Positions 10,370 through 54,559 of a stretch of DNA of 64,000 nt are shown piece by piece. The stretch is from Gammaproteobacteria bacterium (GTDB lineage: Bacteria; Pseudomonadota; Gammaproteobacteria; Steroidobacterales; Steroidobacteraceae): the NCBI GenBank assembly GCA_947455595.1, contig CANGOP010000008.1:1-64000 (forward strand), in the 5' to 3' direction. Within the stretch, counting starts at the first letter, position 1. Every line of letters starts with the position of its first letter. The notes beneath the pieces are model-generated. The model searched no databases. It had not been told where the DNA came from and was given only the letters and a program-made list of their open reading frames with translations. The position numbers were made by a program, and so were the translations under genes.

Positions 10370-10680
10370 CGCGCGATCTCCCAAGATCGAAAGTGGAGAC
10401 TCACGGCGAGGTCGCGACGGTAGCCCTATGGCGCTCGGCAAACACACCCTGAGCTGAGCTTGAATCGTCGCCAATGCCCATACAGCCTTGAATACGGTGA
10501 ATTTCTAATTTGTCGCTCTGCCGATGCGGGTTTTACCCACCGAAATCCACAAATGTGACGTTGTCTAGCGTTTCCGGATGATTCGTTTGTTAAGGATCAA
10601 TCGACGGCTTTGGCAGGGTGTTAAAGAGGCTGTCGCGGTATGCTTGCGCCTTCATTCGCGCACGCTGCCGGGAGGCTGAG
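10370..10680. other. Intergenic region between divergent genes
   Basis: These 311 bases separate the collagen-like gene from the phosphatase-superfamily gene. They contain the ribosome-binding sites of both (GGGAGA for the leftward gene, GGGAGG for the rightward gene) and an AT-richer centre around 10480-10600. I see no clear -35/-10 pair, repeat or small frame that I would defend. Confidence 0.5.
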
Positions 10681-15919: not shown

Positions 15920-18238
15920 TTAAGGGCTGCGCGCGAGTGCGTGGGCCGGCACGTCGAGCGTGGTGCCATCGCTGAAATGGACGGTGCGGACGGTATCGCC
16001 GGCGTTGTACGCCAGATGCGTGCGACGTCCGTCTTTACTGAAAACCCCGTAGAGGGCGGTATCGGCCGTGACCGCGAAGTCGGGCAGACCCATCTCAGCA
16101 AGGCTCTGAATCCAGTGCAGCGTGTGGGTGCGCGTTTCACCCACCTCGACCGACGAGTGGCGATCCCACGCCTTCATGGCAGCCGCCGGGTCGGCTAACG
16201 CCAGGTACTCAGCCAAAACGTCCTGCCAGATCTCGGGTGGCGTGCCGTCGGTGATGCCGCGCGTCTGGTACGCCTTCACTTCCAGCGGCAGCGCCGCGAA
16301 GCCCCGTTGGATCGCCGACGGATCTCGACTGAGGTAGGTGGATGCCGTGGTGATGGGCAATAGATTGATGCCCATGATCTGGCGCGGCTCCTCGGTCCAC
16401 CAGGTGTTGTAGCCGTACATGCCACCAAAGACCATGCTGGCGAACGAACTGCCGAGTTCCGGTGCCAGCACGTTGCGTGGCAAGTCGAACCAGTACTGCT
16501 GTACGGACGCGACCTCGGCGGTATAGAGATAGACGCCAAGGTCACGCAGTGCGCGATCGTGCATCACTTCACCGAGCAGAATCACACCCGCCCAGGCATT
16601 GACCGCTTCGGAGGAGCTCTCTTGGTTGTTGCCGAACTCAAACGGCTGGATGCCCGAGGCCCACGAGTGGCCTTCATAGGGATCGAAGTTGCGCAGGAAC
16701 GGATAGTCGGTGCGCCCGCGTTCGGTAGTGACGATGTCCTTGAGCAACTCGCGGACCATACCACCCCACCGGTCATCGTTCAGCCAAGAGGAATCGCGCA
16801 GGCCGATCGCTGCGGCGGCCTGTAGCCAGTACCCGTAGTGGAAGTGGTGATCGTTGATTTGGGTGACGCTGCCGTATTCCTGCGGGAACCCAAACAGGGT
16901 GCCGAGCGTTGCGTCGTAGGTGAAATGCTGCGCATGGCGGCCATCGAACCACAGCTCGAGGCGGCTTTTCAGGTTGTTCAGGAGTTCGTCACGCTGTGCG
17001 AGTCGACCATGCGCTTCGGCAACGCCCGCCAACTGGCTGACGCCACCGAGACCCTTGCCGATCCAGTAGGTACCGTGTCCTTGCTTCATAAACAGTTGGT
17101 CGGCCTTGGCCACGTCGCCGCTGAGCAAAGCCTCGACTTGTGATCTCGCGGCGGGATCGGTCACGGCGCCCCATCGGGGGAGTAGACCGTTGAAGGTTCG
17201 CGTCAGGGTGAATTCGTTGGCCGCGATGAGCCGGATCTGACCGCGGACGCTCTCGTACGTGGGGCTGGATGCCGGTGCGGCTGACGTCGCGCTCCACTGG
17301 TGCGGGAACAAACCCATGAGCGTGGTCGTCTGCTCGCCCTGCAACGATCGCGTGCGGATCCGGAAGGTGTTCGTGACTTGCGAGGTCGCTTCATCGTAGT
17401 GCCAATCCACACGCGTCTCGGTGGGGCGCGCATAGGCGTGCTGGGCAAAGAGCGCCAAGGTCTCAGGCTTGTCGTCCGGCAGTCCGGCTACGACCGCATA
17501 GCGGGCCCCGTCAGTCAGGTGCAGCACCACGTCGGTGGTGGAGAGACGCTCGAATTGGCTGTGTTCGGGGGCGTAAATCGCGTACGGGCGTCCGTCGATA
17601 CGCAGGACGAGCGAGTGGTCAGCCGTCGCCACGGTCTCAGCTGCGGTGCGGAAATGAAAGCGCAGATCGCCGCTCGGGACGTCGTAATAGCTGTAGGGGC
17701 TCCCATGCAGCACAGTCGCCTCGAGACCTTGTCCAGCCTCGTCGGCGAGGCGCACGGTGACCATCCAGTCGTCATGCTGCGCCAGCGCACTGTGGGTAGG
17801 CTGATAAGCCGTCGCCGAGACACTCAGAGCACCCACGTGTGGATAGCGGATAAATCGCTTGCGCCCGTCATCTTCGATGGCGACAACTTTGCTCGGCAAA
17901 CCGACTTCAAAGCCGGCTTCTGTCGGGCGATAGGTGAGGGGTTGCGCGTAGAGCGGATAGGCCCAGCGATGAAACATCACCGTGGAGTACCATTGATTCG
18001 TCGGCGCGGCCTGGCGTGCGGCATCGCCCACCCGGAACTGCGGTGCCGGTGGTGGCGCTTCAAACCCGAGTTCGCTGGCAATCGGCCGTAAGACGACGGC
18101 GCCCGCGCCGTGCTTGTCGAAACTGTCGGCCGCGCGGGCGGATAGCCCCATGCACAGCAGCAGCGCCGCAATACCGGCGGCGGCCGAAGCCCCCGCCGAA
18201 CGAGATGAGCGGTTCGAGGGGCGGGGTGTGTGCATCAT
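15920..18238 (-). CDS. Secreted endo-beta-1,3-glucanase, GH81
   Basis: The enzyme hydrolyses internal beta-1,3 bonds of laminarin or curdlan-type glucans, inverting the anomeric centre. The 772-residue product starts MMHTPRPSNRSSRS at ATG 18238 and has a signal peptide ending near ARAAD. GH81 features are present in order. TNQWYSTVMFHRWAYPLYAQ near the N-terminus is followed by the catalytic-region motifs NDHHFHYGYWL, EGHSWASGI and NNQESSSEAVNAWAG. Length is typical. It is the third gene of a leftward operon (GH17, outer-membrane barrel, GH81). Its ribosome-binding site TGAGG overlaps the stop codon of the barrel gene, so translation is likely coupled. Control is presumably from the LacI-operated promoter at 21419-21448. 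Confidence 0.93.
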   Translation of the reverse strand: MMHTPRPSNRSSRSAGASAAAGIAALLLCMGLSARAADSFDKHGAGAVVLRPIASELGFEAPPPAPQFRVGDAARQAAPTNQWYSTVMFHRWAYPLYAQPLTYRPTEAGFEVGLPSKVVAIEDDGRKRFIRYPHVGALSVSATAYQPTHSALAQHDDWMVTVRLADEAGQGLEATVLHGSPYSYYDVPSGDLRFHFRTAAETVATADHSLVLRIDGRPYAIYAPEHSQFERLSTTDVVLHLTDGARYAVVAGLPDDKPETLALFAQHAYARPTETRVDWHYDEATSQVTNTFRIRTRSLQGEQTTTLMGLFPHQWSATSAAPASSPTYESVRGQIRLIAANEFTLTRTFNGLLPRWGAVTDPAARSQVEALLSGDVAKADQLFMKQGHGTYWIGKGLGGVSQLAGVAEAHGRLAQRDELLNNLKSRLELWFDGRHAQHFTYDATLGTLFGFPQEYGSVTQINDHHFHYGYWLQAAAAIGLRDSSWLNDDRWGGMVRELLKDIVTTERGRTDYPFLRNFDPYEGHSWASGIQPFEFGNNQESSSEAVNAWAGVILLGEVMHDRALRDLGVYLYTAEVASVQQYWFDLPRNVLAPELGSSFASMVFGGMYGYNTWWTEEPRQIMGINLLPITTASTYLSRDPSAIQRGFAALPLEVKAYQTRGITDGTPPEIWQDVLAEYLALADPAAAMKAWDRHSSVEVGETRTHTLHWIQSLAEMGLPDFAVTADTALYGVFSKDGRRTHLAYNAGDTVRTVHFSDGTTLDVPAHALARSP

Positions 18239-18242
18239 GACC

Positions 18243-19586
18243 TCAGAAGATGAAGTTCGCGCCGACGGTAATCGAATTCGCGGAACGGCTTTCACGCGGA
18301 TCGACGTTGAAGAACGCCGTATTGTTCGGGAATGACAAGGGTGCCGGCAGCTGCTTGTCGAAAGTGACGCGACCGACGCCACCGTACATTTCCATGTGCT
18401 TGGAAATTTCCGGCATCTTGCGATAGAGGCCAACATTCACAAACGTGGCGCTATTGGACTGGCCCCATTCCGTCGGCGTGCGCACATAGGCCTTGTTATA
18501 GCGCACCCCGCCGACTGTAAAGGTCCACAGACGATAGGTGTAGCCGATACCCATCATGGCATCCCACTCAATCGCGTGGTGACGCTGGAAGTCCGAGGCG
18601 TAATTGAAGCCCGGTTGATCCCAGAAGCAGTTGCTCGCGGTCGGGCTCGTGGGGCCGTAGTCGCATTGCTGCTGCTGGCCAGACCACTCATTGCGCTTCA
18701 CGCCGTAGCTCATCTTCCAGGTCGGGTTGAACCAATGCGTGCCTTCGATAATCAGGACATTTTCGGTGGGCGCTTTGTAGTCCGGGGAAGTCGCCGGTCC
18801 ATTGGTGTCGCCTTGGGCGCCATAGAAGGCCCCCTTGGAGAAGGAGCTTTGGCGACCGCCGCTCGAGTCCTGAAAAATCACCTCAACCAGATTCTTGGCA
18901 TTCGACCACTGAATGAACGCTTCGAAGAGTTTGGGTTTCTCCGCCTCAATCACGGCCGAGGATGGGTTGAGTGGTGCCCGTTTCGTGGCCGTGGCACCGG
19001 TGATCTCAAAGCGGATTTTGCCGGTGCCGATTTCGTACTCACGCGTGGCATAGCGCACAGCCTCCGGGAACACACCATAGCCGGCGCCCGATTCTGCCCA
19101 TGAACTCGACAGTCCCATTGGATAGGCGAAGGCGTCTGAGCGCGTCCATGCCCGCGAGGTCATCTTGCCCACATCCAGACTGCCGTACTTTGGGTAGGCA
19201 ATCCCGGCATACAGATCGATCAAATAATTACCGAAAATGTCGGGTCCGTTGTTGCGCACGCGCGAGGTCGCGCGTCCACCAATGGACCACGCACTATCAA
19301 ACTCGTGATTGGCGCCGACCGTGAGCATGGCGAGACCTAAGTTGGCGGTGGTCTGCCCCGAGTTGCCCGGCTGATTCAGCATCGGCGTCGGTGGATTCAG
19401 GACGCCACGCGGATCATAGGAGGAGGGGTTCGATAACCCGAGCGAGCAGTTATCGCACATCGAGAATTCGTCTTTGGCGAATCCATTGATCGTGATGTCG
19501 CCGAATTTGACGGCGTGCGCAGAGCCCGTTGCCAAGACGGCAGTGAGGGTAATCGCCAGAGGGCGGCGAACGTTCAGTGTCTTCAT
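18243..19586 (-). CDS. Outer-membrane beta-barrel protein of the glucan locus (porin-like)
   Basis: The 447-residue protein starts MKTLNVRRPLAITLTAVLAT at ATG 19586 with GGGAGA upstream and has a signal peptide ending SAHA. The mature part alternates amphipathic strands and turns (LAMLTVGANHEF, IGYTYRLWTFTVGGVRYNKA). It ends NSITVGANFIF, with a terminal phenylalanine as in proteins inserted by the Bam machinery. An N-terminal Cys pair (CDNC) is present. There is no TonB box or plug, so passive diffusion rather than energised import is expected. Its position between GH17 and GH81 suggests a channel for beta-glucan oligosaccharides. The family name is not recognised with certainty (porin/DUF1302-like barrels are alternatives). 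Confidence 0.75.
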   Translation of the reverse strand: MKTLNVRRPLAITLTAVLATGSAHAVKFGDITINGFAKDEFSMCDNCSLGLSNPSSYDPRGVLNPPTPMLNQPGNSGQTTANLGLAMLTVGANHEFDSAWSIGGRATSRVRNNGPDIFGNYLIDLYAGIAYPKYGSLDVGKMTSRAWTRSDAFAYPMGLSSSWAESGAGYGVFPEAVRYATREYEIGTGKIRFEITGATATKRAPLNPSSAVIEAEKPKLFEAFIQWSNAKNLVEVIFQDSSGGRQSSFSKGAFYGAQGDTNGPATSPDYKAPTENVLIIEGTHWFNPTWKMSYGVKRNEWSGQQQQCDYGPTSPTASNCFWDQPGFNYASDFQRHHAIEWDAMMGIGYTYRLWTFTVGGVRYNKAYVRTPTEWGQSNSATFVNVGLYRKMPEISKHMEMYGGVGRVTFDKQLPAPLSFPNNTAFFNVDPRESRSANSITVGANFIF

Positions 19587-19621
19587 AGGTGTCTCCCGGT
19601 TTGCGCGGCGCTCTATGGTCA

Positions 19622-21247
19622 TCACGGGTAGTACCCAGCCCCGTCGTAGACGGGCGTATTGCAGGCGCTACCGACGGCCGTACCACACAAGGCATAGCGG
19701 GCCGTGCGCGCGGCATCCCAAAGGCCCCAGCCGTCGTCGAGACCTTTCCATGCTTCGTCGAAGCCTTCGAAGTAGAAGATCGAGACCGGTCCCGAGCCAC
19801 CCGCCTGCCAGCCATTCAACAAGTCGAAGTACCACTTCTGGTTGATGGGGTTGGCGGTGTACAGCTCGATCAGTGAGTTGCCGTTCGTCTGGGTCGCCTT
19901 CCAGCCGGTTTCGCCGACCACGATGGGCATGGCCGAGGCAATCGTCACGGTGCTGCCCGAGTTATCGCGGAACAGGTAGTTGGCTACGGCGTTGTAGGAG
20001 TCCACGGCGTTCTGCAAGGAAGCGGCCATCATCGCAGCGGCGCGATCCGGGCCTGTCGCAACGCTCAGCTGGTGCCAGTCCCAGCGGCCGGAGTTGCTCA
20101 GCGGGTACATATGGATAGATGCGAAGTCGAGGAGCGGCAGCACGAGATTCGGCTTCTCACCGGATGAGGTCAGGCCTGCGTAGAAGGTGTAGTCATCATC
20201 CGCGGTGATCGGCTGAGCGACCTGCGCGCGCACGTACTGCAGATAGCTGGCAAGACACGTGTCCGGCAGGTTCGCCGCGAAGGACGTCTCGTTGCCAACA
20301 CTCACCGTGATCACGTTGCTGTAGGCGTTTGCCAATTCAATAGCTTTGTCCATCTGCGATTGATTCACCGAGTCCACGCAGGATGCCGATGCGCCACGCA
20401 GGTAAATGCCCAGCTGGAAGCGCATCTCCGGATAGTTCGCCTGTGCAAGCGAAATGATCTTTTGCGCGACGGCGTCGGAGCCAAACAAGCGCAGGAGGTT
20501 GAAGCCGGCGCTGTGCAGCAGCCCTAAGTCCTGCAAGACCGCGCTATCGGCCGGCATCTCACCGACGCCGGGGCCACCCGAGCGGTAGGCGCTGTACGCG
20601 ATGGCCTTGCCGGTCCGGTAGATGTCGGGCAATAGGCGGCGCACGAACGGTGAACACAGAACGCGCACGCTCGTGACGTTGCCGGAGGCGGAGCCAGAGG
20701 CGTTGGTGACCGCGCACAGTTCGCCATTCGGGGGTGTCTTGACGGTCACCGAGTACGCGCCGCCTTCATGAATCTTCTGTGCAAACGTGAAGGTGCCATC
20801 GCTGCCGACGGCGAGATCGTCTGCCTTGTTGTTCTGCAAGACGACTACGCCGCCATTGAGGCCCGAGACGGTGCCGCCAACCGTGACGTCGGGCAAGCAC
20901 GTGACCTGCACGGTCGTGACATTGGTCGCCGCTTTGCCCGTGCCACCCGCGGTGACTGAACAGATCGCGCCGTCGGGCTGTGTCTGAACGGCCACGGTGT
21001 AGGCGCTATACGGCGCGACCTTTAAGGCGAACGTGAACGCACCGCTCGCGGTGACGGTGAGTGGGTCGCTACCGTTGTTGGTAAGAACCAATTTGCCGCC
21101 CGTCAGGCCGGAGACCGTGCCGCCGATGGTGACGTAGGCGGCATCCTGTGACCAATTCTGCGAACTGCCGCAGCCGGCTAGCGTGAGCGATAGCCCGGCC
21201 AGCATAAGCCAGCGGTGAGAGCCGATGAGGGAGAGAAACTGTTTCAT
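19622..21247 (-). CDS. Lipoprotein GH17-type beta-1,3-glucan hydrolase or transglycosylase
   Basis: The 541-residue lipoprotein has lipobox LAGC with Cys26. Two tandem beta modules of about 80 residues follow, both beginning GGTVSGL (about 42-118 and 124-199). The GH17 (beta/alpha)8 domain starts around 205. Putative catalytic residues are E320 in VSVGNETSF (acid/base) and E446 in PIVVGETGW (nucleophile), both typical of clan GH-A family 17. The protein is anchored in a membrane and would trim beta-1,3-gluco-oligosaccharides. It is the first gene of the leftward operon. ATG 21247 is chosen because it gives an ideal lipoprotein signal. Promoter and operator lie 160-200 bases upstream. Confidence 0.88.
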   Translation of the reverse strand: MKQFLSLIGSHRWLMLAGLSLTLAGCGSSQNWSQDAAYVTIGGTVSGLTGGKLVLTNNGSDPLTVTASGAFTFALKVAPYSAYTVAVQTQPDGAICSVTAGGTGKAATNVTTVQVTCLPDVTVGGTVSGLNGGVVVLQNNKADDLAVGSDGTFTFAQKIHEGGAYSVTVKTPPNGELCAVTNASGSASGNVTSVRVLCSPFVRRLLPDIYRTGKAIAYSAYRSGGPGVGEMPADSAVLQDLGLLHSAGFNLLRLFGSDAVAQKIISLAQANYPEMRFQLGIYLRGASASCVDSVNQSQMDKAIELANAYSNVITVSVGNETSFAANLPDTCLASYLQYVRAQVAQPITADDDYTFYAGLTSSGEKPNLVLPLLDFASIHMYPLSNSGRWDWHQLSVATGPDRAAAMMAASLQNAVDSYNAVANYLFRDNSGSTVTIASAMPIVVGETGWKATQTNGNSLIELYTANPINQKWYFDLLNGWQAGGSGPVSIFYFEGFDEAWKGLDDGWGLWDAARTARYALCGTAVGSACNTPVYDGAGYYP

Positions 21248-21405
21248 GGATGTCACCGTCGTTACCTGCAACTGGGGCTCAACAGAACCGCATGCGCTTG
21301 GCAGGGCGCACACGTGACTCGACGTGTGCGCTGACCCCCAAGGCTCTCTCAGGCCACCGCTCGCCGCTGAGGCGTTGGTACGTCAGCAGACTGGCGGCAA
21401 CCTTG

Positions 21406-21417
21406 GAAAGCGCTTTC
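21406..21417. promoter_or_regulatory. LacI-family operator O1, GAAAGCGCTTTC
   Basis: A perfect 12-bp palindrome with CG at its centre, as in LacI/GalR-family operators, extended by partly matching flanks (TTG...CAA). It lies directly downstream of the -10 element of the GH17 operon promoter and 107 bases before the LacI-family gene, so it can serve both. The same 12-mer recurs at 23502-23513. Confidence 0.85.
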
Positions 21418-21418
21418 A

Positions 21419-21448
21419 AAAGTAGCGAAACGGTCTGGACTTTGTCAA
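21419..21448 (-). promoter_or_regulatory. Promoter of the GH17 / barrel / GH81 operon
   Basis: On the minus strand a consensus TTGACA (21443-21448) is followed by an 18-base spacer and TACTTT (21419-21424). The operator starts one base after the -10, covering the expected start of transcription. A bound repressor would block initiation. The 5' untranslated leader would be about 165 bases. Confidence 0.7.
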
Positions 21449-21523
21449 ATGGCCGTGACCGGTCTGTGCGCGGTAAGATGACTTTCGCGAGCCAAGGCCG
21501 ATACGGCCAAGCAGGGAGACGAC

Positions 21524-22579
21524 ATGGCAACAGGACGCAAATCGACGGGATCCAAGGCGGCCGCGCCCGTGGCGCCGGCCGGCGTTGTAACCCTGGAGAT
21601 GGTTGCCGAAGAGGCGGGCGTCTCGCCCAGTACGGTTTCCCGGATCCTCAACGGCACCGCGAAGGTGCGCGAGTCCAAGGTTCGTGCCGTCCGGGCAGCG
21701 ATTTCCAAACTGCAGTTTCAGCCCAACCCCGTCGCGCGATCCCTTGCACGGGGGCGCTCGATGAGCGTCGGCGTCATTATCCAGACCATCGACTCTCCTT
21801 TTTATGGAGAGGCGCTCGCGGCGATAGAGAAAGGCCTCTTCCGCGCCGGGTATTCGGTGCTGTTCCTCTCCGGTCACTGGCGTGAAGATGACGAGCGCCG
21901 CTGTGTCGAGCATCTGCTCGCGCGCCGGGTCGAGGGGATCATTCTGGTGACGAGCTGTTTGCCGGATGCGGAACTGGTGCGGCTGACCCGGACCGTTCCG
22001 ATCGTGCTCACGGGCCGTTCGATCGAAGCCGAACGTTCGTATTCGATGGATGCGGACTCGACGCCCGGTGCGCGCTTGGCGACCGAGTATCTGATCGGTC
22101 AAGGCCATCGAAAAATCGCCTTCATCGCAGGTCCGGCCAATCATCCAGACTCGCAGCAGCGCTTAAACGGCTACAAGGCGGCACTGGCGAACGCGAAGAT
22201 TCCGTTCGCCGCGAAGTTGGTCGTGCCGGGTGATTATTCGGATGCTGGCGGACATTTAGCGATGAACCGCTTGCTCGATGCCAAGGCGGAATTCACAGCG
22301 GTCTTCGCTGCCAACGATCAGACCGCGTACGGCGCGATGTTGGCGTTGCATCGGCGGGGGCTGCGCGTCCCTCAGGATGTCTCGATCGTTGGCTTTGACG
22401 ACCTGCCGACCTCGTCTTACATCATTCCGCCTTTGACGACGGTTCACCGCTCAATTCATGAAGTGGGTGAGGCCGCAGCGGAGGCCATGATCGACCTGTT
22501 GGATGGTCGGGTGCCGGTCTCGAAACTGTCGACAGCGACGTTGGCGATTCGTGAATCGACGCGTTCCGTCCGTTACTGA
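21524..22579 (+). CDS. LacI-family transcriptional regulator of the glucan locus
   Basis: The 351-residue protein has an N-terminal Ala/Lys-rich extension. The helix-turn-helix (VTLEMVAEEAGVSPSTVSRI, 22-41) and hinge helix (NPVARSLARGR) follow. After that comes a periplasmic-binding-protein-like sugar domain (SVGVIIQTIDSPFYGEALAA, VVPGDYSDAGG, FDDLPTSSYIIPPLTTV). Members bind palindromic operators with central CG and release DNA on binding a sugar. Two identical palindromes flank this gene in the right positions, so it very likely represses both glucan gene sets and possibly itself. The inducer is inferred to be a beta-glucan oligosaccharide. The ATG has GGGAG upstream. The gene ends one base before the convergent hydrolase gene. 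Confidence 0.93.
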   Translation: MATGRKSTGSKAAAPVAPAGVVTLEMVAEEAGVSPSTVSRILNGTAKVRESKVRAVRAAISKLQFQPNPVARSLARGRSMSVGVIIQTIDSPFYGEALAAIEKGLFRAGYSVLFLSGHWREDDERRCVEHLLARRVEGIILVTSCLPDAELVRLTRTVPIVLTGRSIEAERSYSMDADSTPGARLATEYLIGQGHRKIAFIAGPANHPDSQQRLNGYKAALANAKIPFAAKLVVPGDYSDAGGHLAMNRLLDAKAEFTAVFAANDQTAYGAMLALHRRGLRVPQDVSIVGFDDLPTSSYIIPPLTTVHRSIHEVGEAAAEAMIDLLDGRVPVSKLSTATLAIRESTRSVRY

Positions 22580-22580
22580 G

Positions 22581-23444
22581 TTACGGCAAGCCGTGCGCAC
22601 GTAGAAAGCGGGATGCGGGCACCTGCCACGCGGGGCCGTTGCGGTTAAAAATGAAATGGCCGTTGTTCTTATCGGCGGGGAGCCAGACGAATTCGCCGTC
22701 GCCACCGGCGTGCTGCCACGCATCAAACCAGCGGACTGGCCAATCCGGCCCCCAGAAGCGGTCATTGCGGCTGTAGAGGAAGAGGGCGGGAACCTTGGCT
22801 GTTCGCCCGAGCGTCGTCAGCGTCGCCGCCAGTGCTGCGGGGTCGCACGGCACGTCGACGTGACGCAGGGAGTCACCGCCGTCGCCGCCAGACACGTTTA
22901 TCACGGCTTTCAGACCCCTGGGCGGATGCGTTGCAAGGTCGAGGGCAATGAGTCCGCCAAAGGAATCGCCGATCACGATCACGCGTCCGCTATCCGACCA
23001 TGGGTAGACGCGTGCCGCATTCATGACAGAGGCGACCTCGCGGGCCGCCGTCTCCAGAGCGCTATCGGCTGACTTGTGCTGACACGGCCCGGTGAACTCA
23101 ATGTCCGGACCGCCGGTAATGCCGTATCCGATCCGGGTCGGGATGAGGACGGCGTAGCCTCGCCCGACCAGGTAACGCGCGTTCGCTGGAAAGTCCGCAC
23201 GGCCCACCCGGCGGTTCTCATCCGCATCCACGCCCCGACCGTGCAAGAGAATGGCAAGCGGATGGCGTTGGTCGTCATCGGGTCGCACGACGAGCACGGA
23301 GACTGCAGGGAGCGGGGCTGAGCGTGCCGCCTGTGCAACGCGGGGAGCCTTGGCTTGGAAGGACTCTTCCAGCACGCCGGCCTCACTGATCCCACCGATG
23401 AGGGTGGTCAGTGCAAGCAGGAGCATGGGGCGCCAACGGTTCAT
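22581..23444 (-). CDS. Exported alpha/beta-hydrolase (dienelactone-hydrolase-like)
   Basis: The 287-residue protein has a signal peptide (MLLLALTTLIGGISEA). It carries an alpha/beta-hydrolase core with oxyanion segment ILLHGRGVD (66-73), nucleophile elbow GDSFGG (S161), a likely acid D228 in YSRNDRF, and His263 in NNGHFIF. The substrate is unknown; ester removal from a polysaccharide or an unrelated esterase role are both possible. The much longer upstream extension of the frame crosses the neighbouring promoter and is rejected. The start at 23444 lies 58 bases from operator O2, so divergent control by the LacI-type regulator is possible. Confidence 0.78.
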   Translation of the reverse strand: MNRWRPMLLLALTTLIGGISEAGVLEESFQAKAPRVAQAARSAPLPAVSVLVVRPDDDQRHPLAILLHGRGVDADENRRVGRADFPANARYLVGRGYAVLIPTRIGYGITGGPDIEFTGPCQHKSADSALETAAREVASVMNAARVYPWSDSGRVIVIGDSFGGLIALDLATHPPRGLKAVINVSGGDGGDSLRHVDVPCDPAALAATLTTLGRTAKVPALFLYSRNDRFWGPDWPVRWFDAWQHAGGDGEFVWLPADKNNGHFIFNRNGPAWQVPASRFLRAHGLP

Positions 23445-23466
23445 GAGATGGATGCTAGCGCAGGCG

Positions 23467-23497
23467 TTGACATACCCGTCTGCCTTTGTGGTACTTT
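23467..23497 (+). promoter_or_regulatory. Promoter of the lipoprotein / GH1 / GH16 gene set
   Basis: Consensus TTGACA (23467-23472), a 19-base spacer, and TACTTT (23492-23497), the same -10 hexamer as in the leftward promoter. The operator palindrome begins 5 bases later. The predicted leader is about 70 bases to the ATG at 23574. Confidence 0.65.
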
Positions 23498-23501
23498 CTA
23501 T

Positions 23502-23513
23502 GAAAGCGCTTTC
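23502..23513. promoter_or_regulatory. LacI-family operator O2, GAAAGCGCTTTC
   Basis: Identical to O1 in all 12 positions and placed at the same location relative to a TACTTT -10 element. This ties the rightward glucan gene set to the regulator encoded at 21524-22579. Confidence 0.85.
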
Positions 23514-23573
23514 TAAATGGCGCACCAACGCTATCGTTTTATTTGCGCGCTGTGCCGCGAGGGGTCGACATCC

Positions 23574-24446
23574 ATGAGCACCATCGTTCTGAAGTCCTCG
23601 AGCCGAATCGCCGCTCTGTTGGCCGTTGTGGCGGTCTTTCTTGCCGCATGCGGTGGCGGTGGCGTGACGCCGACGCCTTCCAGTGGCGGGGGTGGTTCGG
23701 GTGGCGGCGGCTCGGGTGGTGGCGGTAGCGGTGGCGGCGGTGGCACCACTGCGAGTGCGACGCCCTACATTCTGTTTGCCTCCAACTACGTCGCGTACAA
23801 CGCGCAGACCAATGGTGCGTATTTGCACTCGATCCAGCTGGGCGACCTGTACGCGGGCTTCGGCGGTAATTATGGCTATGGATGCTATTCCGCATCGCAG
23901 CCAGATATGGATCGCACGCAGCTCTATATCGTGCAGGCACAGGCGAACGGCGACGGCAATTGCAACCAGACGTCATCGACGCCACCGACGGCCGCAGGTG
24001 ATTACGTCTACGTGGCGATCAAGGCACCGGCGAGTAACGGCTCGAACGTGACCTCAATCCCGCCCATCGACATCAGCCAGTCGGCGACGTTGTTGGTCCA
24101 GATGGGTAACACGGTTGCGGCAGATGCCACCCATGGCCATGCCAACGTCTTTACGGTGGTCTTGACCAACGATCCGCAAGGCAATGGCTCTGCGGCTACC
24201 GCGACGGCGACCTGCAGCTACGACCAGACGCTGGTGACGGTCGGTGCGAGCGGACCGTCTGCGCTGGGGGTCAACAACTATGCTATTCCGCTGTCGGCCT
24301 TTACCTGTTCGCCAGGCTCAATGAGCGCGCTGCAGACGTCTGGCGTGACAGCGGTGGCGGTCAAATTCACGGGTGATAAGAACCCGAGTGTTGTGGCGGG
24401 TGAGTACAACACGATCGCGGTGGGCTATATCGGCTTTAGTAAGTAA
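23574..24446 (+). CDS. Surface lipoprotein with Gly4-Ser linker, probable glycan-binding protein
   Basis: The 290-residue protein starts MSTIVLKSSSRIAALLAVVA with lipobox LAAC (Cys26). Residues of about 37-56 form a natural linker of repeated four-glycine-one-serine units. A single domain of about 230 residues follows, with several Cys and strand patterns (DISQSATLLVQMGN, ANVFTVVLTND, VTAVAVKFTG, NTIAVGYIGF) typical of jelly-roll carbohydrate-binding modules. No catalytic motif is seen. As the first gene after the glucan promoter it is best explained as a glycan-capture protein tethered to the outer membrane. The family is not recognised. The ATG at 23574 has an AGGGG Shine-Dalgarno site about 12 bases upstream. 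Confidence 0.7.
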   Translation: MSTIVLKSSSRIAALLAVVAVFLAACGGGGVTPTPSSGGGGSGGGGSGGGGSGGGGGTTASATPYILFASNYVAYNAQTNGAYLHSIQLGDLYAGFGGNYGYGCYSASQPDMDRTQLYIVQAQANGDGNCNQTSSTPPTAAGDYVYVAIKAPASNGSNVTSIPPIDISQSATLLVQMGNTVAADATHGHANVFTVVLTNDPQGNGSAATATATCSYDQTLVTVGASGPSALGVNNYAIPLSAFTCSPGSMSALQTSGVTAVAVKFTGDKNPSVVAGEYNTIAVGYIGFSK

Positions 24447-24519
24447 TCGGGGTCGCGCGAGACCTCGGCGACTGCACCGGCCGCTCCATGACAATCACGA
24501 GACGGAAGAAAGCGCAGAT

Positions 24520-25932
24520 ATGAGCGCCACGCCGAGCGAGTACTTGGTTCGAGAAGCGGTAGACCCAGAACGGGTCGCCAAACGCTTCCCGTCGGATTTT
24601 GTCTGGGGGGTCGCCACCAGTGCTTTTCAAATCGAAGGGACGACCGCCGGCGATGGCCGAGGGCCATCGATTTGGGATGAGTTCTGCGAGCAGCCAGGGG
24701 TCATTCTGGACGGCAGTAATGGGCGCGATGCCTGTCAGCATGTCCAGCGCTGGGAGTCGGATCTGGACCTGATCGCCTCCCTGGGGATTAACCATTATCG
24801 GTTTTCGATCAGTTGGCCGCGTGTGCAACCGGAGGGTCAGGGCGCTTGGAATGAAGCCGGGCTGGCCTTTTATGACCGACTGGTCGATGGAATGTTGGCG
24901 CGGGGTATCCAACCACATGTGACCTTGTATCACTGGGACTTGCCCAGTGGGTTGCAGGCGCAGGGTGGCTGGCAATCGCGTGAGACGGTGGCTCACTTCG
25001 TTGATTATGCGCGCAAGATCGGGGCACTCCTCGGCGACCGCTCCGCCAGCATCGCGACTCACAACGAACCGTGGGTCGTGGCGACCCTCGGTCACCAGCA
25101 CGGGATTTTCGCGCCGGGATTGCGGGATCGGCGTGCGGCGACCCAAGTGTCGCATCACTTACTCGTCTCCCACGGTGATGCGCTGACCGCGTTACGGGCT
25201 GATGGTGTGCGTTGCCCGCTCGGCATCGTGCTGAATCAAGCGCCGGTGCATGCCGCGACCGCGTTGGTGGAAGATCGACTGCGAGCGCAACTCGAAGATG
25301 GCGAGCTGGTGCGTTGGTACATGGACCCGCTCATGAAGGGAGCGTATCCCGCAGACGTCCTGGCGCATCTCGGCACCGATGCGCCGAAAATCCTGTCAGG
25401 CGACTTTGCGCGAATTGGTGTCCCGCTCGATTTTCTCGGGATCAACTACTACACCCGCAACATCGCGATCGCGAGCGGCCGCTACGACCCGACGTCGAGC
25501 GGGTTGGAACTGACGGACATGGGTTGGGAAGTCTTCCCGGCGGGGCTTACCGAATTGCTGACGCGCCTGCATCGCGATTATCAGCTGCCACCGATCTACA
25601 TCACGGAGAACGGTGCCGCCTACCCGGACGAATGCGTGGCTGGCGTGGTGGATGACGCCGCGCGCGTTCGATATTTGGATGCGCATATTCAGGCCGTCGC
25701 GACGGCTCGTGACGCGGGCGTCGATGTGCGCGGTTATTTTGCTTGGAGTCTGCTCGACAATTTCGAGTGGGCGCACGGTTACACCAAACGCTTTGGCATC
25801 GTGCATGTGGACTACGCGACACAGCAGCGCACGCCCAAAGCGAGCGCTCTGTGGTACCGGGATCTGCAGCGCACCTTTCGGGATCGCAAGGGTGGCGTTG
25901 TCCGGCGAGTTCATGACCGTGAGCCGTCCTAA
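24520..25932 (+). CDS. Beta-glucosidase, GH1
   Basis: The cytoplasmic 470-residue enzyme (no signal peptide) releases glucose from beta-gluco-oligosaccharides with retention. GH1 hallmarks are FVWGVATSAFQIEG (27-40), NHYRFSISWPR, and THNEPW with acid/base E183. YITENGAAY supplies nucleophile E363, and WSLLDNFEWAHGY comes late. The ATG at 24520 gives the usual family N-terminus; the longer frame overlaps the lipoprotein gene and is not needed. It lies 73 bases after the lipoprotein gene and 9 bases before GH16. It probably completes laminari-oligosaccharide breakdown after uptake by the symporter. Confidence 0.94.
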   Translation: MSATPSEYLVREAVDPERVAKRFPSDFVWGVATSAFQIEGTTAGDGRGPSIWDEFCEQPGVILDGSNGRDACQHVQRWESDLDLIASLGINHYRFSISWPRVQPEGQGAWNEAGLAFYDRLVDGMLARGIQPHVTLYHWDLPSGLQAQGGWQSRETVAHFVDYARKIGALLGDRSASIATHNEPWVVATLGHQHGIFAPGLRDRRAATQVSHHLLVSHGDALTALRADGVRCPLGIVLNQAPVHAATALVEDRLRAQLEDGELVRWYMDPLMKGAYPADVLAHLGTDAPKILSGDFARIGVPLDFLGINYYTRNIAIASGRYDPTSSGLELTDMGWEVFPAGLTELLTRLHRDYQLPPIYITENGAAYPDECVAGVVDDAARVRYLDAHIQAVATARDAGVDVRGYFAWSLLDNFEWAHGYTKRFGIVHVDYATQQRTPKASALWYRDLQRTFRDRKGGVVRRVHDREPS

Positions 25933-25941
25933 AGTCATCCC

Positions 25942-26874
25942 GTGAGTGCTCTCACAACCATGCAGGATCCGTCGATCCCGGGTTGGACGTTGGTCTGGTC
26001 TGACGAGTTTGAGGGCGACACGTTGGATCGAAGCCGTTGGGAGCCTCAGTTGGGCAACGGCTTCCACGACCACCGTTCGGGTCAGTGGGTGCCCGGATGG
26101 GGCAACAATGAACTGCAGTCCTATACCGACAAACCCAGCAATCTGTTTCTCGAAGACAGTTGTCTTGTGATCCGGGCGTGTCGTGAGACGGCGGCGGATG
26201 GCTGTGCTTACACCTCCGCACGCATTCGTACACGATCATCGGATGGGGAGTCGCTGTTCTCGCAAGCGTATGGCCGCTTTGAATGCCGTGCACGCGTGAC
26301 CGCCGGGCAGGGTATTTGGCCGGCCTTCTGGTTGTTGCCGACGGAAGAGAAGTACGGTGGCTGGGCTGCTTCCGGTGAGATTGATGTGATGGAAGTGGTC
26401 GGTGCGCGACCACACGAAGTGCTCGGCAGCATCCATTTCGGATCAGGTTGGCCACATCGCGATCACCACACGGTCGTTCATCCGTTGGGTCATGGTGGCT
26501 CCGCTGAATCGTTTCACGTCTATGCGGTGGAATGGGATCCGGGCGTCATCCGTTGGCTCGTCGATGGCGAGGTCTACGCTGAGCAGCGCTTCTGGTGGAG
26601 TTGCAGTGACCGTGATCATTCCGGTGGTCAACTGCCGCAGACCGCGGCGCACCTTAATCCATGGCCTGCGCCCTTTGATCGACCGTTTCATCTGCTGCTG
26701 AACTTGGCGATCGGTGGTGGGCTGCCCGGTGCGCCCGATGCCTCTACGCCGTTTCCGGCAGAGTTCGTGATTGATTACGTCCGTGTCTACCAGCGTACTG
26801 CCGGCGTGCTGCCCTTGGCGGCGCGAGGCGAGGGCGTGGTCCCGTTTGCTCCGCCCAACAATCTCGCGACGTAG
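25942..26874 (+). CDS. GH16 laminarinase-type beta-glucanase without signal peptide
   Basis: The 310-residue protein is a GH16 beta-jelly roll. It has LVWSDEFEGDTLDRSRWE near the start, WGNNELQSYT, the catalytic strand GEIDVMEVVG (E146, D148, E151), and IRWLVDGEVY. This is the bulged ExDxxE arrangement seen in bacterial laminarinases (endo-beta-1,3-glucanases). The start is GTG 25942 (ATG 25960 also possible). Neither start gives a signal peptide, which is odd for an endo-acting polysaccharide hydrolase. It may act on imported oligosaccharides, or the true export signal is lost. It is only 9 bases downstream of GH1, so the two are co-transcribed. Confidence 0.9.
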   Translation: MSALTTMQDPSIPGWTLVWSDEFEGDTLDRSRWEPQLGNGFHDHRSGQWVPGWGNNELQSYTDKPSNLFLEDSCLVIRACRETAADGCAYTSARIRTRSSDGESLFSQAYGRFECRARVTAGQGIWPAFWLLPTEEKYGGWAASGEIDVMEVVGARPHEVLGSIHFGSGWPHRDHHTVVHPLGHGGSAESFHVYAVEWDPGVIRWLVDGEVYAEQRFWWSCSDRDHSGGQLPQTAAHLNPWPAPFDRPFHLLLNLAIGGGLPGAPDASTPFPAEFVIDYVRVYQRTAGVLPLAARGEGVVPFAPPNNLAT

Positions 26875-26968
26875 CGGGTGGGTGGGCAGTGGGTTTGATG
26901 AGTGGTGTTGATGGGATGGCGCGTCCATGGGCGTGTGAGTGCAGGCCCAACTTTCTGGGGGTATTGTC

Positions 26969-29221
26969 ATGCGGTTGAATCGTTCTTTGCTTCGTATCCT
27001 GGCGGTGCTCGCCATCACGACGGGCCTCGCCGCCTGTCAGCCCGGTACTGCCACGGCGCCGAAGCAGCCCTCCGTCATCGCCATCGCAGCGCTGCCCGCC
27101 AGTTTCACGCTGCCGGTGGGACATACCCAGGCGCTCACGGTGCACGGGGAACTGTCCGACTCGACCAAGGCGCCGATCGATGTGACGGCCGGTTCGTCGT
27201 TCTCGACCCAAGACGCGCGGGTCGCAACGGTGGATTCGCGCGGCATCGTGACCGCGATGCACAGTGGCTCCACGCAGATTCATATCCTGCACTCCCAATC
27301 GGGTCAGCAGACGACGGCAACGGTGACGGTTGCGGCGGGAGCGTTAGCGGGCATCGTGTTATCCCCCTCGCAAGTGGCCGTGGCGCCGGGTGGGACTGCG
27401 GCGTTGAGTGTCACAGCCATCTATGCCGACGCTTCGCAGTCGACGTTACTGTCGGGTGTCACCTTTGTGTCAGCGGATCCGACCATCGCGACGGTGGACA
27501 CCGCCGGTCTGATGACCGGGGTGCACGCGGGTACGACGAGCATCACCGCCACCGATACGGCTTCGGGCCGGACCGCTGTGGCGGGCGTGTCGGTGGGCGC
27601 AAGCTATGCGGTGCTCTCGTTCAATGATCCCTCTCAGGCGTATACCCTCACCCCGTTTGGTGGCGAGATAGCGAGTCTGGTGACGTCGGGTATTCCACCC
27701 GGCGGCCCAACGGGCACGGTCGTCATGATCACAAAGCCCGCCGGCGCGCCGTGCTGGGCCGGTACGACGCTGTCGGTCGGCGGGCAACAGTCGGTCGGTA
27801 CTCTGCCGTTCTCCGCTTCGGCCAGCGTGATGACCATACAGATCTATGCGCCCGCGGCGGGCATGACCGTCAAGTTGAAGGCTGAAAACGCGAGCAACGC
27901 GGGTGTGAGCGTCGAGACGGATGTCGTGACGACTACCGCCGGTTGGCAGGTTCTAACCTTTGACTTTGCGCATCCGTCACCGGGAACGGCCGCGCTGGAT
28001 CCTTCGCAAACCTACAACAAGATTTCGATCTTCAGTGATTTCACGTGCTCGAGTGGTGGCGCCTCTCCAGGCGCGGATGAGATTTTCTATGTCGGCCCGA
28101 TCACGTTTGTCGGCGCTGCAGCGGCGAGCGCGCCGCCGTTGCCCGTGCCGCTGCCCACCTATGCGGTGCTGGATTTCAATGCGGCAGGCGTTACCGTCAC
28201 GGCGAGTACCTTTGGGGGTGCCGGCACGGCATTGACGTCGTCGGGCGTACCGGCCGGTGGTCCCGGTGGAACCGTTCTGTTGTACGCCAAGGGCGCCGGC
28301 GCTCAATGCTGGGCAGGTGCCACGCTCTCCGTCGGCTACAACCTCTCGATCGGCGCGCTGCCGTTTGCGAATGGCGCGACGCGTATCACCGTGCCGGTCT
28401 ACGTTCCCACCGCGGGTGTGGATGTGAAGCTGAAGGTGGAGGACGCTAACAATGCGGCGGTCTCCGTGGAAACGGATGTCATCGCTGCGTCGGCCGGTTG
28501 GCAGACACTGACCTTTGATTTTGCCAATCAGGCTCCGGGTACGGCGGCGCTGGATTTCTCAAAGACCTATAACAAGCTCACCATCTTCGGGGACTTTACT
28601 TGCGCCAGTGGTGCACCGGCGCCCGCGGCCGACGAGATCTTCTACCTTGGTTCCTTCACCTTCGTGGGTGCCGCGGCCGCGGCGGCACCACCGTTATCAC
28701 CGCCGGTGATCACGAGTACCTATCAAACGTTGACCTTTGACGACGCCGCGAAGACCTATCCGACGTCTGATTTTTCCGGGGACGTGAGTTCGGTGGTGGC
28801 TGGACCGACGGGGAGCAATGGCAACGTCTTGAAGATCGTGAAGAGCGCCAACGCGGCGCTCTATGCCGGTACGCTCGTGGGTGATGCGGGTATTCCGTCG
28901 GCGCCGACCATCGGTGCGATTCCATTCACCAACACGCGCACAACGTTCACGGTGCGGGTATGGGCGGCGCAGGCGGGTCTCGATGTGAAGCTGAAGTTCC
29001 AGGATGCTTCGGCGACCCACTCCGTTGAAACCGATACGCCGACCACGGTGGCCGGTGGGTGGAGTACCTTGACGTTCAATTTGGCGAATCCAGCCACGGG
29101 TACGCCCGCACTGGATCCCACCCAGACGTACACCACGATGGTGGTCTTTCCCAATTTTGGCAGTACGCCCACGGCAGACGAGCCGGCCATGTATTTCGAC
29201 GATTTCACTTTCCTGCCGTGA
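26969..29221 (+). CDS. Large lipoprotein with two Big2-like domains and three tandem candidate glycan-binding modules
   Basis: The 750-residue protein starts MRLNRSLLRILAVLAITTGL with lipobox LAAC. Two bacterial Ig-like (Big2) domains follow (about 30-115 and 118-205, with DARVATVDSRGIVTAMHSGS and DPTIATVDTAGLMTGVHAGT). Then come three related modules (about 208-380, 386-560, 568-750). Each has an opening xFDD/FN strand, VKLK-ASN-VETD in the middle, GWQxLTFDFA-PGTAALD-TY, and a terminal DEIFYVGxxTF strand. No enzyme motif is present. The modules look like beta-sandwich carbohydrate-binding modules of a family I cannot name. The architecture (anchor, Ig spacer, binders) is that of a surface glycan-binding protein. 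ATG 26969 is set by the lipoprotein signal. Confidence 0.8.
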   Translation: MRLNRSLLRILAVLAITTGLAACQPGTATAPKQPSVIAIAALPASFTLPVGHTQALTVHGELSDSTKAPIDVTAGSSFSTQDARVATVDSRGIVTAMHSGSTQIHILHSQSGQQTTATVTVAAGALAGIVLSPSQVAVAPGGTAALSVTAIYADASQSTLLSGVTFVSADPTIATVDTAGLMTGVHAGTTSITATDTASGRTAVAGVSVGASYAVLSFNDPSQAYTLTPFGGEIASLVTSGIPPGGPTGTVVMITKPAGAPCWAGTTLSVGGQQSVGTLPFSASASVMTIQIYAPAAGMTVKLKAENASNAGVSVETDVVTTTAGWQVLTFDFAHPSPGTAALDPSQTYNKISIFSDFTCSSGGASPGADEIFYVGPITFVGAAAASAPPLPVPLPTYAVLDFNAAGVTVTASTFGGAGTALTSSGVPAGGPGGTVLLYAKGAGAQCWAGATLSVGYNLSIGALPFANGATRITVPVYVPTAGVDVKLKVEDANNAAVSVETDVIAASAGWQTLTFDFANQAPGTAALDFSKTYNKLTIFGDFTCASGAPAPAADEIFYLGSFTFVGAAAAAAPPLSPPVITSTYQTLTFDDAAKTYPTSDFSGDVSSVVAGPTGSNGNVLKIVKSANAALYAGTLVGDAGIPSAPTIGAIPFTNTRTTFTVRVWAAQAGLDVKLKFQDASATHSVETDTPTTVAGGWSTLTFNLANPATGTPALDPTQTYTTMVVFPNFGSTPTADEPAMYFDDFTFLP

Positions 29222-29229
29222 TCGCCGCG

Positions 29230-29257
29230 CCACGCCGATTTGCAAAGATCGGCGTGG
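29230..29257 (+). terminator. Hairpin between the large lipoprotein and symporter genes
   Basis: CCACGCCGAT (29230-29239) and ATCGGCGTGG (29248-29257) form a perfect 10-bp stem with an 8-base loop, 9 bases after the stop. No T-run follows. It may attenuate transcription into the symporter gene or protect the upstream mRNA. Confidence 0.5.
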
Positions 29258-29350
29258 TGATTGCAGGATCGGGATGTCTCGCACAATCACACGGTCATCT
29301 GTTCGGGTGAGGGGTTTCCCGACAGATGGCTCTTAAGGTGGACCGCAATC

Positions 29351-30721
29351 ATGACAACAGCGAACGGACGGCTTTCGTTCTTCGACAAAATCGGCTACGG
29401 CTTTGGTGATTTTGCGTCGAACTTCTTCTGGCAGATGTTCGCGATTTACATCGCGAAGTATTACACCGATGTGTTCCTGCTCAGCGCCGCGGCCATGGGT
29501 ACCATGATGCTGGTGACCCGCTCCGCCGATGCCATCATTGATCCGCTGATCGGAATTCTTGCGGACCGTACGCGCACGCGCTTTGGACGTTTCCGGCCCT
29601 ATCTGTTGTGGATGAGCGTGCCTTTGGCGCTATCCGCCGTGGCGACCTTCACCGTGCCGGCCTTGGCGGGCGGTGCGAAGATGACCTATGCCTATGTGAC
29701 CCTAACGCTGCTGATGTTCTTCTATTCAGCCATCAATATCCCGTATTCCGCCCTGTTCGGTGTGCTGACCTCCGACTCTGCTGAGCGCAGTACGGTCTCG
29801 GCGTATCGCTTCGTCTTTGGTTTTTTGCCGATCTTTATCCTCGTGAACGCCACCGATCCGATGGTTCGCTATTTCGGCGGTTCGAGCATTGCGCCGCGCG
29901 GCTGGCAGGCTGCCATGGTTGTCTACTCGATCGTGGCCGTGGTCTTTTTCGTGCTGACCTTCCTGTTGACTAAGGAGCGTGTCAAACCGGTGGCTGATCA
30001 TCGCCAGAATCTGCGCGAAGACCTGCGCGACCTGCGCCGCAACCGGCCTTGGATGATCCTGAGTTTGGTGGGTGTGGCTGCGCTGACTTGCGGCAATATG
30101 CGCAGCGCCGTGATGCTGTACTACTTCGACTATGTGGTGCCGAATGGTCACGGCGCTTTTGGCACGGCCATGACGATCGGCGCGTTGGCCTTCCTGATCG
30201 GCGTGGCGGTCTCGGCACCCTTGGTGCATCGTTTTGGTAAGAAGCGCTTCTATCTGTGGTCGACAATGACCACGGCCGTGCTGACGGCCGGATTCTATTT
30301 CGTGCCGGTCGATAACTTGCCTGCGATCTGGACGATGCATGGCTTGATCAGTCTCTCGATCGCGCCGACCGCGCCGATCATCTGGTCCATGTATGCCGAC
30401 ACCGCCGACTACTCCGAGTGGAAGAGTGAGCGGCGTGCCACCGGCCTTGTGTTTTCCGCGGCCTCCTTCTCGCAGAAGGTGGGTTGGGCGCTCGGCGGAG
30501 CAGGGACCGGATGGTTACTCGCCTACTTCGGTTATCAGCCGAATGTGGCTCAGTCGGCGTCGACCTTGCAGGGCATTGTGCTGATGATGAGCTTGATTCC
30601 AGGTGCTATTGCGCTGCTGGCCGCCTTTGCGCTGCGTTACTACCCCTTGGATGAGGCGGCTGTGCAGGAGATGGCAACGGAGTTGGCGCCGCGTCGGGCG
30701 GCCGCAGCGCAGGCTCAGTGA
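29351..30721 (+). CDS. GPH-family (glycoside-pentoside-hexuronide) cation symporter
   Basis: The 456-residue inner-membrane protein has about 12 helices. It shows the GPH/MelB-type signatures GYGFGDFASNFFWQ near the N-terminus, DAIIDPLIGILADRTRTRFGRFRP in the 2-3 loop, and YADTADYSEWKSERRATGLVFSA in the second half. Family members import glycosides with Na+ or H+. Position at the end of the glucan gene set points to laminari-oligosaccharides or another beta-glucoside. ATG 29351 gives the normal family start; the longer frame adds 30 unsupported residues. Its last 7 bases overlap the convergent anti-sigma-type gene. Confidence 0.9.
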   Translation: MTTANGRLSFFDKIGYGFGDFASNFFWQMFAIYIAKYYTDVFLLSAAAMGTMMLVTRSADAIIDPLIGILADRTRTRFGRFRPYLLWMSVPLALSAVATFTVPALAGGAKMTYAYVTLTLLMFFYSAINIPYSALFGVLTSDSAERSTVSAYRFVFGFLPIFILVNATDPMVRYFGGSSIAPRGWQAAMVVYSIVAVVFFVLTFLLTKERVKPVADHRQNLREDLRDLRRNRPWMILSLVGVAALTCGNMRSAVMLYYFDYVVPNGHGAFGTAMTIGALAFLIGVAVSAPLVHRFGKKRFYLWSTMTTAVLTAGFYFVPVDNLPAIWTMHGLISLSIAPTAPIIWSMYADTADYSEWKSERRATGLVFSAASFSQKVGWALGGAGTGWLLAYFGYQPNVAQSASTLQGIVLMMSLIPGAIALLAAFALRYYPLDEAAVQEMATELAPRRAAAAQAQ

Positions 30722-41686: not shown

Positions 41687-42408
41687 GCCCGTGTCTAGCG
41701 GTGTCCGGCCTGGTCGCCGGCTATGAGCGCGGCAATCCGATTGTGCGCGGCGCGAGCGTTACCGTTGAACCCGGACAGATCGTCACGCTGATCGGTCCGA
41801 ATGGCGCGGGCAAGTCCACCTGCGTACGCACGATTGCAGGGCTCGTCCCCATTGAGGCCGGTCGTATCGAACTGGAAGGTCAGGACATCACGGCAGTCCC
41901 GGCGCACGGGCGGGTGGCGACGGGGCTGGGCTTCGTGCCGCAGAGCGACAATATTTTCGCGGATCTCAGCATTGAGGAAAATCTGCAGCTCGGCGTCCCA
42001 CGTGGCGCGACGCGCGATGGACGCGCACGGGCTGAGGCTTTGCTTGCATCGCTGCCGGAGTTTCGCGACGGCCGGGCGCGTCGGGCCGGCGGCTTGTCCG
42101 GTGGCCAACGCCAGGTGTTGGCCGTGGCACGCGCGCTCATGGCGGCACCGACGGTGCTCTTGCTCGATGAACCAACGGCGGGCCTGTCGCCGCGAGCCGT
42201 GACCGAACTGTTGAGACAATGTCGACAACTGGCTGACGAAGGCCTCGGCATCTTGATGGTCGAGCAGAACGTGCGGTCGGCTTTTACGGTCTCCGACCAG
42301 GTGGTGATGCTGGTTCAAGGTGCGGTGGCGATGGCCGGTACGCCGGCGCAATTGATCGCGGATCCGCGACTCGCCGCGTATTTCCTCGGCGCTCGGAGTC
42401 CCGCATGA
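41683..42408 (+). CDS. ABC transporter ATP-binding protein, LivF type
   Basis: The 241-residue ATPase pairs with the LivG-type subunit. Walker A is GPNGAGKSTCVRTIAG, the Q-loop region reads LGFVPQSDNIFADLSIEENL, the signature is LSGGQRQVLAVARALM, and Walker B LLLDEPTAGLSP. The H position reads MVEQN, with Gln in place of His as is usual in LivF. It overlaps both neighbours by 4 bases. Confidence 0.93.
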   Translation: MSPCLAVSGLVAGYERGNPIVRGASVTVEPGQIVTLIGPNGAGKSTCVRTIAGLVPIEAGRIELEGQDITAVPAHGRVATGLGFVPQSDNIFADLSIEENLQLGVPRGATRDGRARAEALLASLPEFRDGRARRAGGLSGGQRQVLAVARALMAAPTVLLLDEPTAGLSPRAVTELLRQCRQLADEGLGILMVEQNVRSAFTVSDQVVMLVQGAVAMAGTPAQLIADPRLAAYFLGARSPA

Positions 42409-54472: not shown

Positions 54473-54559
54473 GCTAACACGCACTGGCCGGTCGCTGTCA
54501 CGCGTGGGTGTCGATGGGGGCCGTTGGGGCGGCTTTGCGTGAACTGAGGGGGAGTGGCG

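Follow-up and report, generated by a model that had tools for sequence, protein, structure and literature searches.

A putative LacI-controlled beta-1,3-glucan locus with a predicted outer-membrane porin in a gammaproteobacterium

Among the carbon stores of algae laminarin is a major one, and its uptake is modelled mainly around TonB and Sus receptors. According to the available part of one account, gammaproteobacterial clusters resembling polysaccharide utilization loci (PULs) have no SusCD and use other TonB transporters instead, and clusters of carbohydrate-active enzymes (CAZymes) without a co-located TonB-dependent transporter were also counted (PMC8371827). For the Woeseiaceae, the accessible text reports a SusC gene in the laminarin PULs of 7 of 11 metagenome-assembled genomes (MAGs) (PMC12175321). 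Vibrio takes up alginate by the porin KdgMN and the symporter ToaABC, and chitin by a chitoporin, as described in the accessible portion of PMC12125979. Here we describe a locus at positions 15920–30721 of a 64,000-nucleotide stretch of gammaproteobacterial DNA (the window; assembly GCA_947455595.1, contig CANGOP010000008.1), in which an outer-membrane barrel is encoded among glycoside hydrolases (GH) of families 81, 17, 16 and 1. We consider it probable that this locus is a LacI-controlled beta-1,3-glucan regulon with TonB-independent uptake of oligosaccharides.

Open reading frame (ORF) and family profile checks confirmed the locus at these coordinates with every claimed gene inside. The GH81, barrel and GH17 genes form a tight run on the minus strand. 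The LacI gene (21524–22579, plus strand) is divergent from this run and is followed on the plus strand by genes for a first lipoprotein (LIPO1), GH1, GH16, a second lipoprotein (LIPO2) and a GPH-family cation symporter. Gene starts, signal peptides and lipoboxes were all judged by eye. The source assembly comprises 3.04 Mb in 60 contigs and is 87.73% complete; the window is the start of its contig C8.

The barrel (18243–19586, minus strand) has an apparent signal peptide and a C-terminal phenylalanine. We modelled it with AlphaFold2 from 15 sequences. The best of five models reached a predicted local distance difference test (pLDDT) score of 63.8 with a predicted template modelling (pTM) score of 0.67, and the lowest pLDDT was 32.4. 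By our own count the model comprises 16 strands of at least 9 residues and 3 short ones. The top Foldseek match was the chitoporin 5mdq (E 3.5e-13, template modelling (TM) scores 0.53/0.66), and nearly all of the 50 matches listed were porins. Identity to solved porins in the structural alignment was about 11%; sequence searches with the barrel gave no match among PDB sequences and none among plasmid records. The Pfam family Porin_4 was matched in 2 of the 15 family members (best value 1.3e-8), the copy in the window not being one of them. The model points, with moderate confidence, to a 16-stranded porin fold and to neither SusC nor a TonB receptor.

The barrel was present in 16 of the 196 genomes searched, its own included, and all 16 belong to the 31 genomes with a GH81 (hypergeometric P 2.5e-15, uncorrected for kinship). 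A scan of named genomes yielded 21 barrel loci, 15 of them on contigs already counted, which results in 22 distinct genomes: 19 closer ones and three with distant loci (L116, L117 and L119). GH81 directly adjoins the barrel in 21 of the 22; in the last one (G062) the sequence stops at the contig edge. Among the closer genomes, three contigs end before GH17 (G064, G078 and G111). In all 16 readable loci GH17 directly precedes the barrel and the order GH17-barrel-GH81 is kept; this conserved order covers the GH81-barrel-GH17 part of the arrangement for which the initial annotation suggested a synteny search. The distant loci differ in gene order, and their barrels are 39–42% identical. Their record labels read Oxalobacteraceae, Thiomonas and unplaced proteobacterium G2_65, although labels in this set are unreliable. 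The labels of G048 (Planktophila) and G078 (Janthinobacterium) clash with a close match to other relatives and likely stem from mislabelled bins.

The symporter gene lies at 29351–30721 (plus strand; TIGR00792, 394.1 bits, cut-off 231.35). Of the 22 barrel genomes, 12 have a GPH gene on the stretch read, several of the other stretches being cut short. At L116 there are ABC-importer genes for a solute-binding protein and two permeases, and at L119 for a solute-binding protein and one permease scanned. At L117 only a solute-binding protein was seen (a neighbouring ORF is without a family), together with a GPH gene. Both L117 and L119 additionally carry a GH30. The barrel, GH81, GH1 and LacI are retained in all three distant loci, and each has one or more exact copies of the palindrome discussed below. 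The inner-membrane importer thus varies between loci in which the barrel keeps its place.

The enzymes match families that fit beta-1,3-glucan, in agreement with the initial annotation. GH81, assigned as an endo-beta-1,3-glucanase (15920–18238, minus strand), matched both Pfam domains above the cut-off of 25.6 bits (172.6 and 35.5 bits) and PDB entry 6fop over nearly its full length (E 2.4e-158). GH1, assigned as a beta-glucosidase (24520–25932, plus strand), scored 590.9 bits with TIGR03356 (cut-off 478.5). GH16 (25942–26874, plus strand), the sole Pfam GH16 match in the assembly, scored 70.9 bits (cut-off 22) and matched solved laminarinases with E values around 1e-50. LacI was likewise above its Pfam cut-off, and these four assignments and that of the symporter were borne out. 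The GH17-type lipoprotein (19622–21247, minus strand), which contains two similar N-terminal stretches, is a weaker case: it matched the solved GH17 6fcg at E 8.5e-9, but its Pfam score of 24.6 bits lies under the cut-off of 28.2. Its catalytic residues are presumably present, and we take the catalytic motifs of the locus enzymes to be intact. PF10287 matched none of the sequences searched, controls included.

For the reading of export signals, rows below 45% identity were excluded for GH16 and GH17, including the GH16-like genes of L117 and L119. GH81 has an apparent signal peptide here, an apparent export signal in most loci printed and a lipobox in G027. A lipobox-like cysteine was seen in 13 of 17 GH17 rows; the other rows end before the N-terminus. 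No signal peptide was seen by eye for GH1, nor for GH16 in any of the nine rows printed; GH16 of G009 has an upstream hydrophobic stretch, but this overlaps the end of GH1. Two GH3 matches occur elsewhere in the assembly. The apparent lack of signal peptides in GH16 and GH1 suggests that imported oligosaccharides are finished in the cytoplasm, where endo-cleavage would probably end.

LIPO1 (23574–24446, plus strand) has a lipobox and a glycine-rich linker and was modelled as a beta-sandwich (pLDDT 68.7). Its best solved fold match is a family 11 carbohydrate-binding module (CBM11; E 4.9e-5, TM 0.39 for the query and 0.62 for the target) that was solved with mixed-linkage glucan. The 10 fold matches at E ≤0.001 include the xyloglucan-locus protein SGBP-B and some non-sugar proteins. 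Strong LIPO1 hits were found in 10 of the 196 genomes, nine with the barrel and one (G067) without. LIPO2 (26969–29221, plus strand) combines Big_2 domains with three repeats that are related to 8qx6, a 'PKD domain-containing protein' (profile match E 6.7e-11 over 99 of 163 positions). These repeats are found in 26 of the 196 genomes, many of them without the barrel, and LIPO2 belongs to the locus in some relatives only; it is therefore accessory. An open frame of the relative G048 (L105:5248–8052) is shared by GH17 and a LIPO2-type stretch, hinting that the repeats may bind the substrate of GH17. The resemblance of folds or repeats to glycan-binding proteins supports the earlier description of two putative glycan-binding lipoproteins, and glucan binding is likely.

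The substrate of this set might be another beta-glucan (callose, fungal wall, curdlan or mixed-linkage glucan) instead of algal laminarin, which would be compatible with the porin route. GH81, GH17, GH16 and GH1 enzymes act on several beta-glucans, and both the ligand of the CBM11 matched by LIPO1 and the additional GH30 of L117 and L119 are in line with such a substrate. However, GH81 is a beta-1,3-glucanase family, and the best matches of GH16 among solved structures are laminarinases and endo-1,3-glucanases. We regard this alternative as tenable but somewhat doubtful.

Two copies of the palindrome GAAAGCGCTTTC were observed, one per control region of the locus: at 21406–21417, between the divergent GH17 and LacI genes, and at 23502–23513, approximately 60 bases upstream of the LIPO1 start. 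The gap between LacI and GH17 contains a site with at most one mismatch in 13 of 13 relatives with both flanking genes (4 exact, 9 with one mismatch), and an exact palindrome precedes LIPO1 in 11 of 11 stretches of relatives. Loci with strong LIPO1 hits (E < 1e-100) have the exact site in 10 of 10 cases, those with weak hits (L161–L174, L178) in 0 of 15. A test with control patterns covered 344,401 bases of 22 loci, which are related and hence non-independent. The palindrome occurred there 22 times exactly and 14 times with one mismatch; each of six palindromic control patterns had no exact site and at most one site with one mismatch. A seventh, non-palindromic control (0 exact, 13 one-mismatch) was dropped because of its similarity to the sequence flanking true sites. 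As we read the coordinates, 34 of the 36 sites precede a pathway gene; the other two are in G048. Terminator-like sites were at chance level (13 vs 12.0). A conserved palindrome at the target promoters is what characterizes a LacI-type regulon, and the adjacent LacI-type regulator noted earlier is thus accompanied by conserved candidate operators. We infer from these sequences that GAAAGCGCTTTC is the operator bound by the LacI of the locus.

The pattern GAAASCGSTTTC occurs without mismatch at five sites of the assembly. Two are at the locus and two on contig C19; the fifth (C6:91028) lies inside an unrelated, monooxygenase-like ORF (named by eye) and was judged to be a chance occurrence. The C19 sites, which read GAAAGCGGTTTC, precede two exported LIPO1 paralogues (36% identity to LIPO1 over 237 and 35% over 143 residues), the first of which is divergent from a second GH17. 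This satellite cluster (L147:6258–11259) and the locus, both beta-glucan clusters, hold four of the five sites. With a uniform model, the probability of two of the three outside sites falling within one 5 kb is about 8e-6 for a stretch chosen post hoc. The satellite GH17 carries ASH/Ig-like domains and is 61% identical to the GH17 of the locus over 340 residues. In relative G014, two such sites likewise accompany a second GH17 (48%) and a paralogue of LIPO1 (37%). Because the unlinked cluster shares the type of operator and has its own GH17 and a pair of LIPO1 paralogues, the locus is not self-contained, contrary to what had been assumed. Further members of the regulon can be sought with the palindrome, which in this case pointed to a cluster of relatives of the locus genes.

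Based on the gene content and the models we propose the following pathway. The exported GH81 and the lipoprotein GH17, aided by the glycan-binding lipoproteins, would cleave the glucan extracellularly or on the cell surface. A dedicated 16-stranded porin would then carry the resulting oligosaccharides across the outer membrane, and the GPH symporter would bring them through the inner one. Once they are in the cytoplasm, GH16 may shorten them and GH1 may release glucose. An oligosaccharide or laminaribiose would lift LacI off the GAAAGCGCTTTC operators before both operons and off the sister sites at the satellite with its second GH17 and two LIPO1 paralogues.

None of the ten ORFs scanned at the locus matched a SusC, SusD or TonB family, as the initial annotation had stated, and the SusC/SusD pair of a Bacteroidota-type PUL is not among them. 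On the locus contig the nearest TonB-receptor match is located at 62544–63689, not adjacent to the locus as in a TonB-dependent glucan cluster; the contig begins at base 1 of the window, which is where the view to the left ends. An unlinked TonB receptor could import the glucan, the barrel merely passing small products without being decisive. The TonB-receptor barrel family is matched 33 times in the assembly, and a receptor lies beside or near GH81 in at least 5 of the 15 barrel-less GH81 genomes (G001, G010, G084, G013, G004), a lower bound, since two of the five escaped our own profile and stretch lengths differ. At one of the barrel loci, L109, a TonB receptor lies approximately 3 kb from GH81. 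However, the upstream stretches of these matches, 4 of the 33 being cut by contig ends, contained no zero-mismatch operator site, and the barrel adjoins GH81 in 21 of the 22 genomes. We consider import by an unlinked receptor unlikely. A swap of barrel and TonB receptor in barrel-less genomes was also considered, and is not proposed, a receptor being near GH81 in 5 of the 15. That the barrel is an ordinary diffusion porin without a special role would agree with its general porin fold and its low identity to solved porins, but is very unlikely given that in the 196 genomes searched it was found only together with GH81 (16 of 16) and that it stays in place while the importer changes. The previously suggested uptake by a porin-like barrel and a symporter is backed by the fold, the GPH gene and the receptor-free locus, while the transport itself is put forward here as a proposal.

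Several observations weigh against TonB-independent uptake under LacI control. The barrel model is only of moderate confidence, and the copy in the window had no Pfam match even at E 1. Polymeric laminarin should not pass a 16-stranded porin; an enzyme must therefore act outside, and the side on which GH81 acts is putative. Besides the 33 receptor matches themselves, two one-mismatch sites lie approximately 1.5 and 1.9 kb from estimated starts of TonB-receptor genes. With two mismatches allowed, the count of the palindrome in the window is at chance (3 vs 2.69), and a promoter scan found no sigma-70-like promoter. The satellite sites have the sequence GAAAGCGGTTTC and so could be bound by a different LacI, and a LIPO1 paralogue fragment of G014 at a contig edge (L176) has no site. 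Genome G067 holds LacI, LIPO1, GH1 and part of GH16 with an exact operator site on a short contig (L182), and a search of this genome found neither barrel nor GH81; the contig ends inside LacI, and the gap is likely one of assembly. Finally, the 7 of 11 Woeseiaceae MAGs with SusC in their PULs, as given in the accessible text, mean that receptor-less glucan clusters are already on record (PMC12175321).

A gene absent from the earlier description encodes an alpha/beta hydrolase (22581–23444, minus strand; assigned by family profile, apparent signal peptide) and sits between LacI and LIPO1. It was confirmed by Pfam at the same place in 3 of 3 relatives scanned (L090, L116, L092). Outside the locus, a GH39 is encoded at 54554–56104 (plus strand). 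An ORF of 802 residues (8066–10474, minus strand) contains a long, collagen-like stretch of Gly-Ala-Thr triplets, which accounts for high-GC tandem repeats in the window. The strong AT skew (-0.313) at 42001–44000 spans two genes of branched-chain amino acid type permeases and is probably ordinary for membrane-protein genes.

The gammaproteobacterial laminarin clusters, as far as the available text describes them, combine GH3, GH16, GH17 and GH30, occasionally with GH81, and are without SusCD, as is our locus; they carry TonB-dependent transporters where we predict a 16-stranded porin (PMC8371827). The Woeseiaceae PULs are likewise gammaproteobacterial beta-glucan clusters, and the accessible portion of their description mentions neither GH81 nor a porin, both of which are present or predicted here (PMC12175321). 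A Bacteroidota laminarin PUL shares enzyme families and glycan-binding lipoproteins with the locus but has SusC/SusD, which were not found in it, and its usual regulators differ from LacI. The contrast with Bacteroidetes drawn in the initial annotation holds as far as SusC/SusD are concerned, but is less telling than that with the gammaproteobacterial TonB clusters. We found no report of a porin-based beta-1,3-glucan locus in the open PMC literature, searched mainly by titles and starts of abstracts, which is weak evidence of absence. Uptake by porin and symporter is already known for other sugars. In the available part of its description, the Vibrio alginate system has the outer-membrane porin and inner-membrane symporter proposed here, with a different substrate and different regulators, and is likened by layout and not by the KdgM fold (PMC12125979). 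The oligosaccharide-specific Vibrio chitoporin ChiP (5mdq) is the top fold match of our barrel, at 11% identity in the structural alignment and with no match at the sequence level. We lean towards the view that the barrel founds a porin family for beta-1,3-gluco-oligosaccharides, in a TonB-free pathway of distantly related proteobacteria with a cytoplasmic endo-cleavage finish, exchangeable GPH and ABC importers and one conserved LacI operator. If this porin route is conserved, screens for glucan users based on TonB or Sus receptors miss such bacteria. The unusual point of the locus would be a porin in the role that TonB transporters hold in other gammaproteobacterial clusters.

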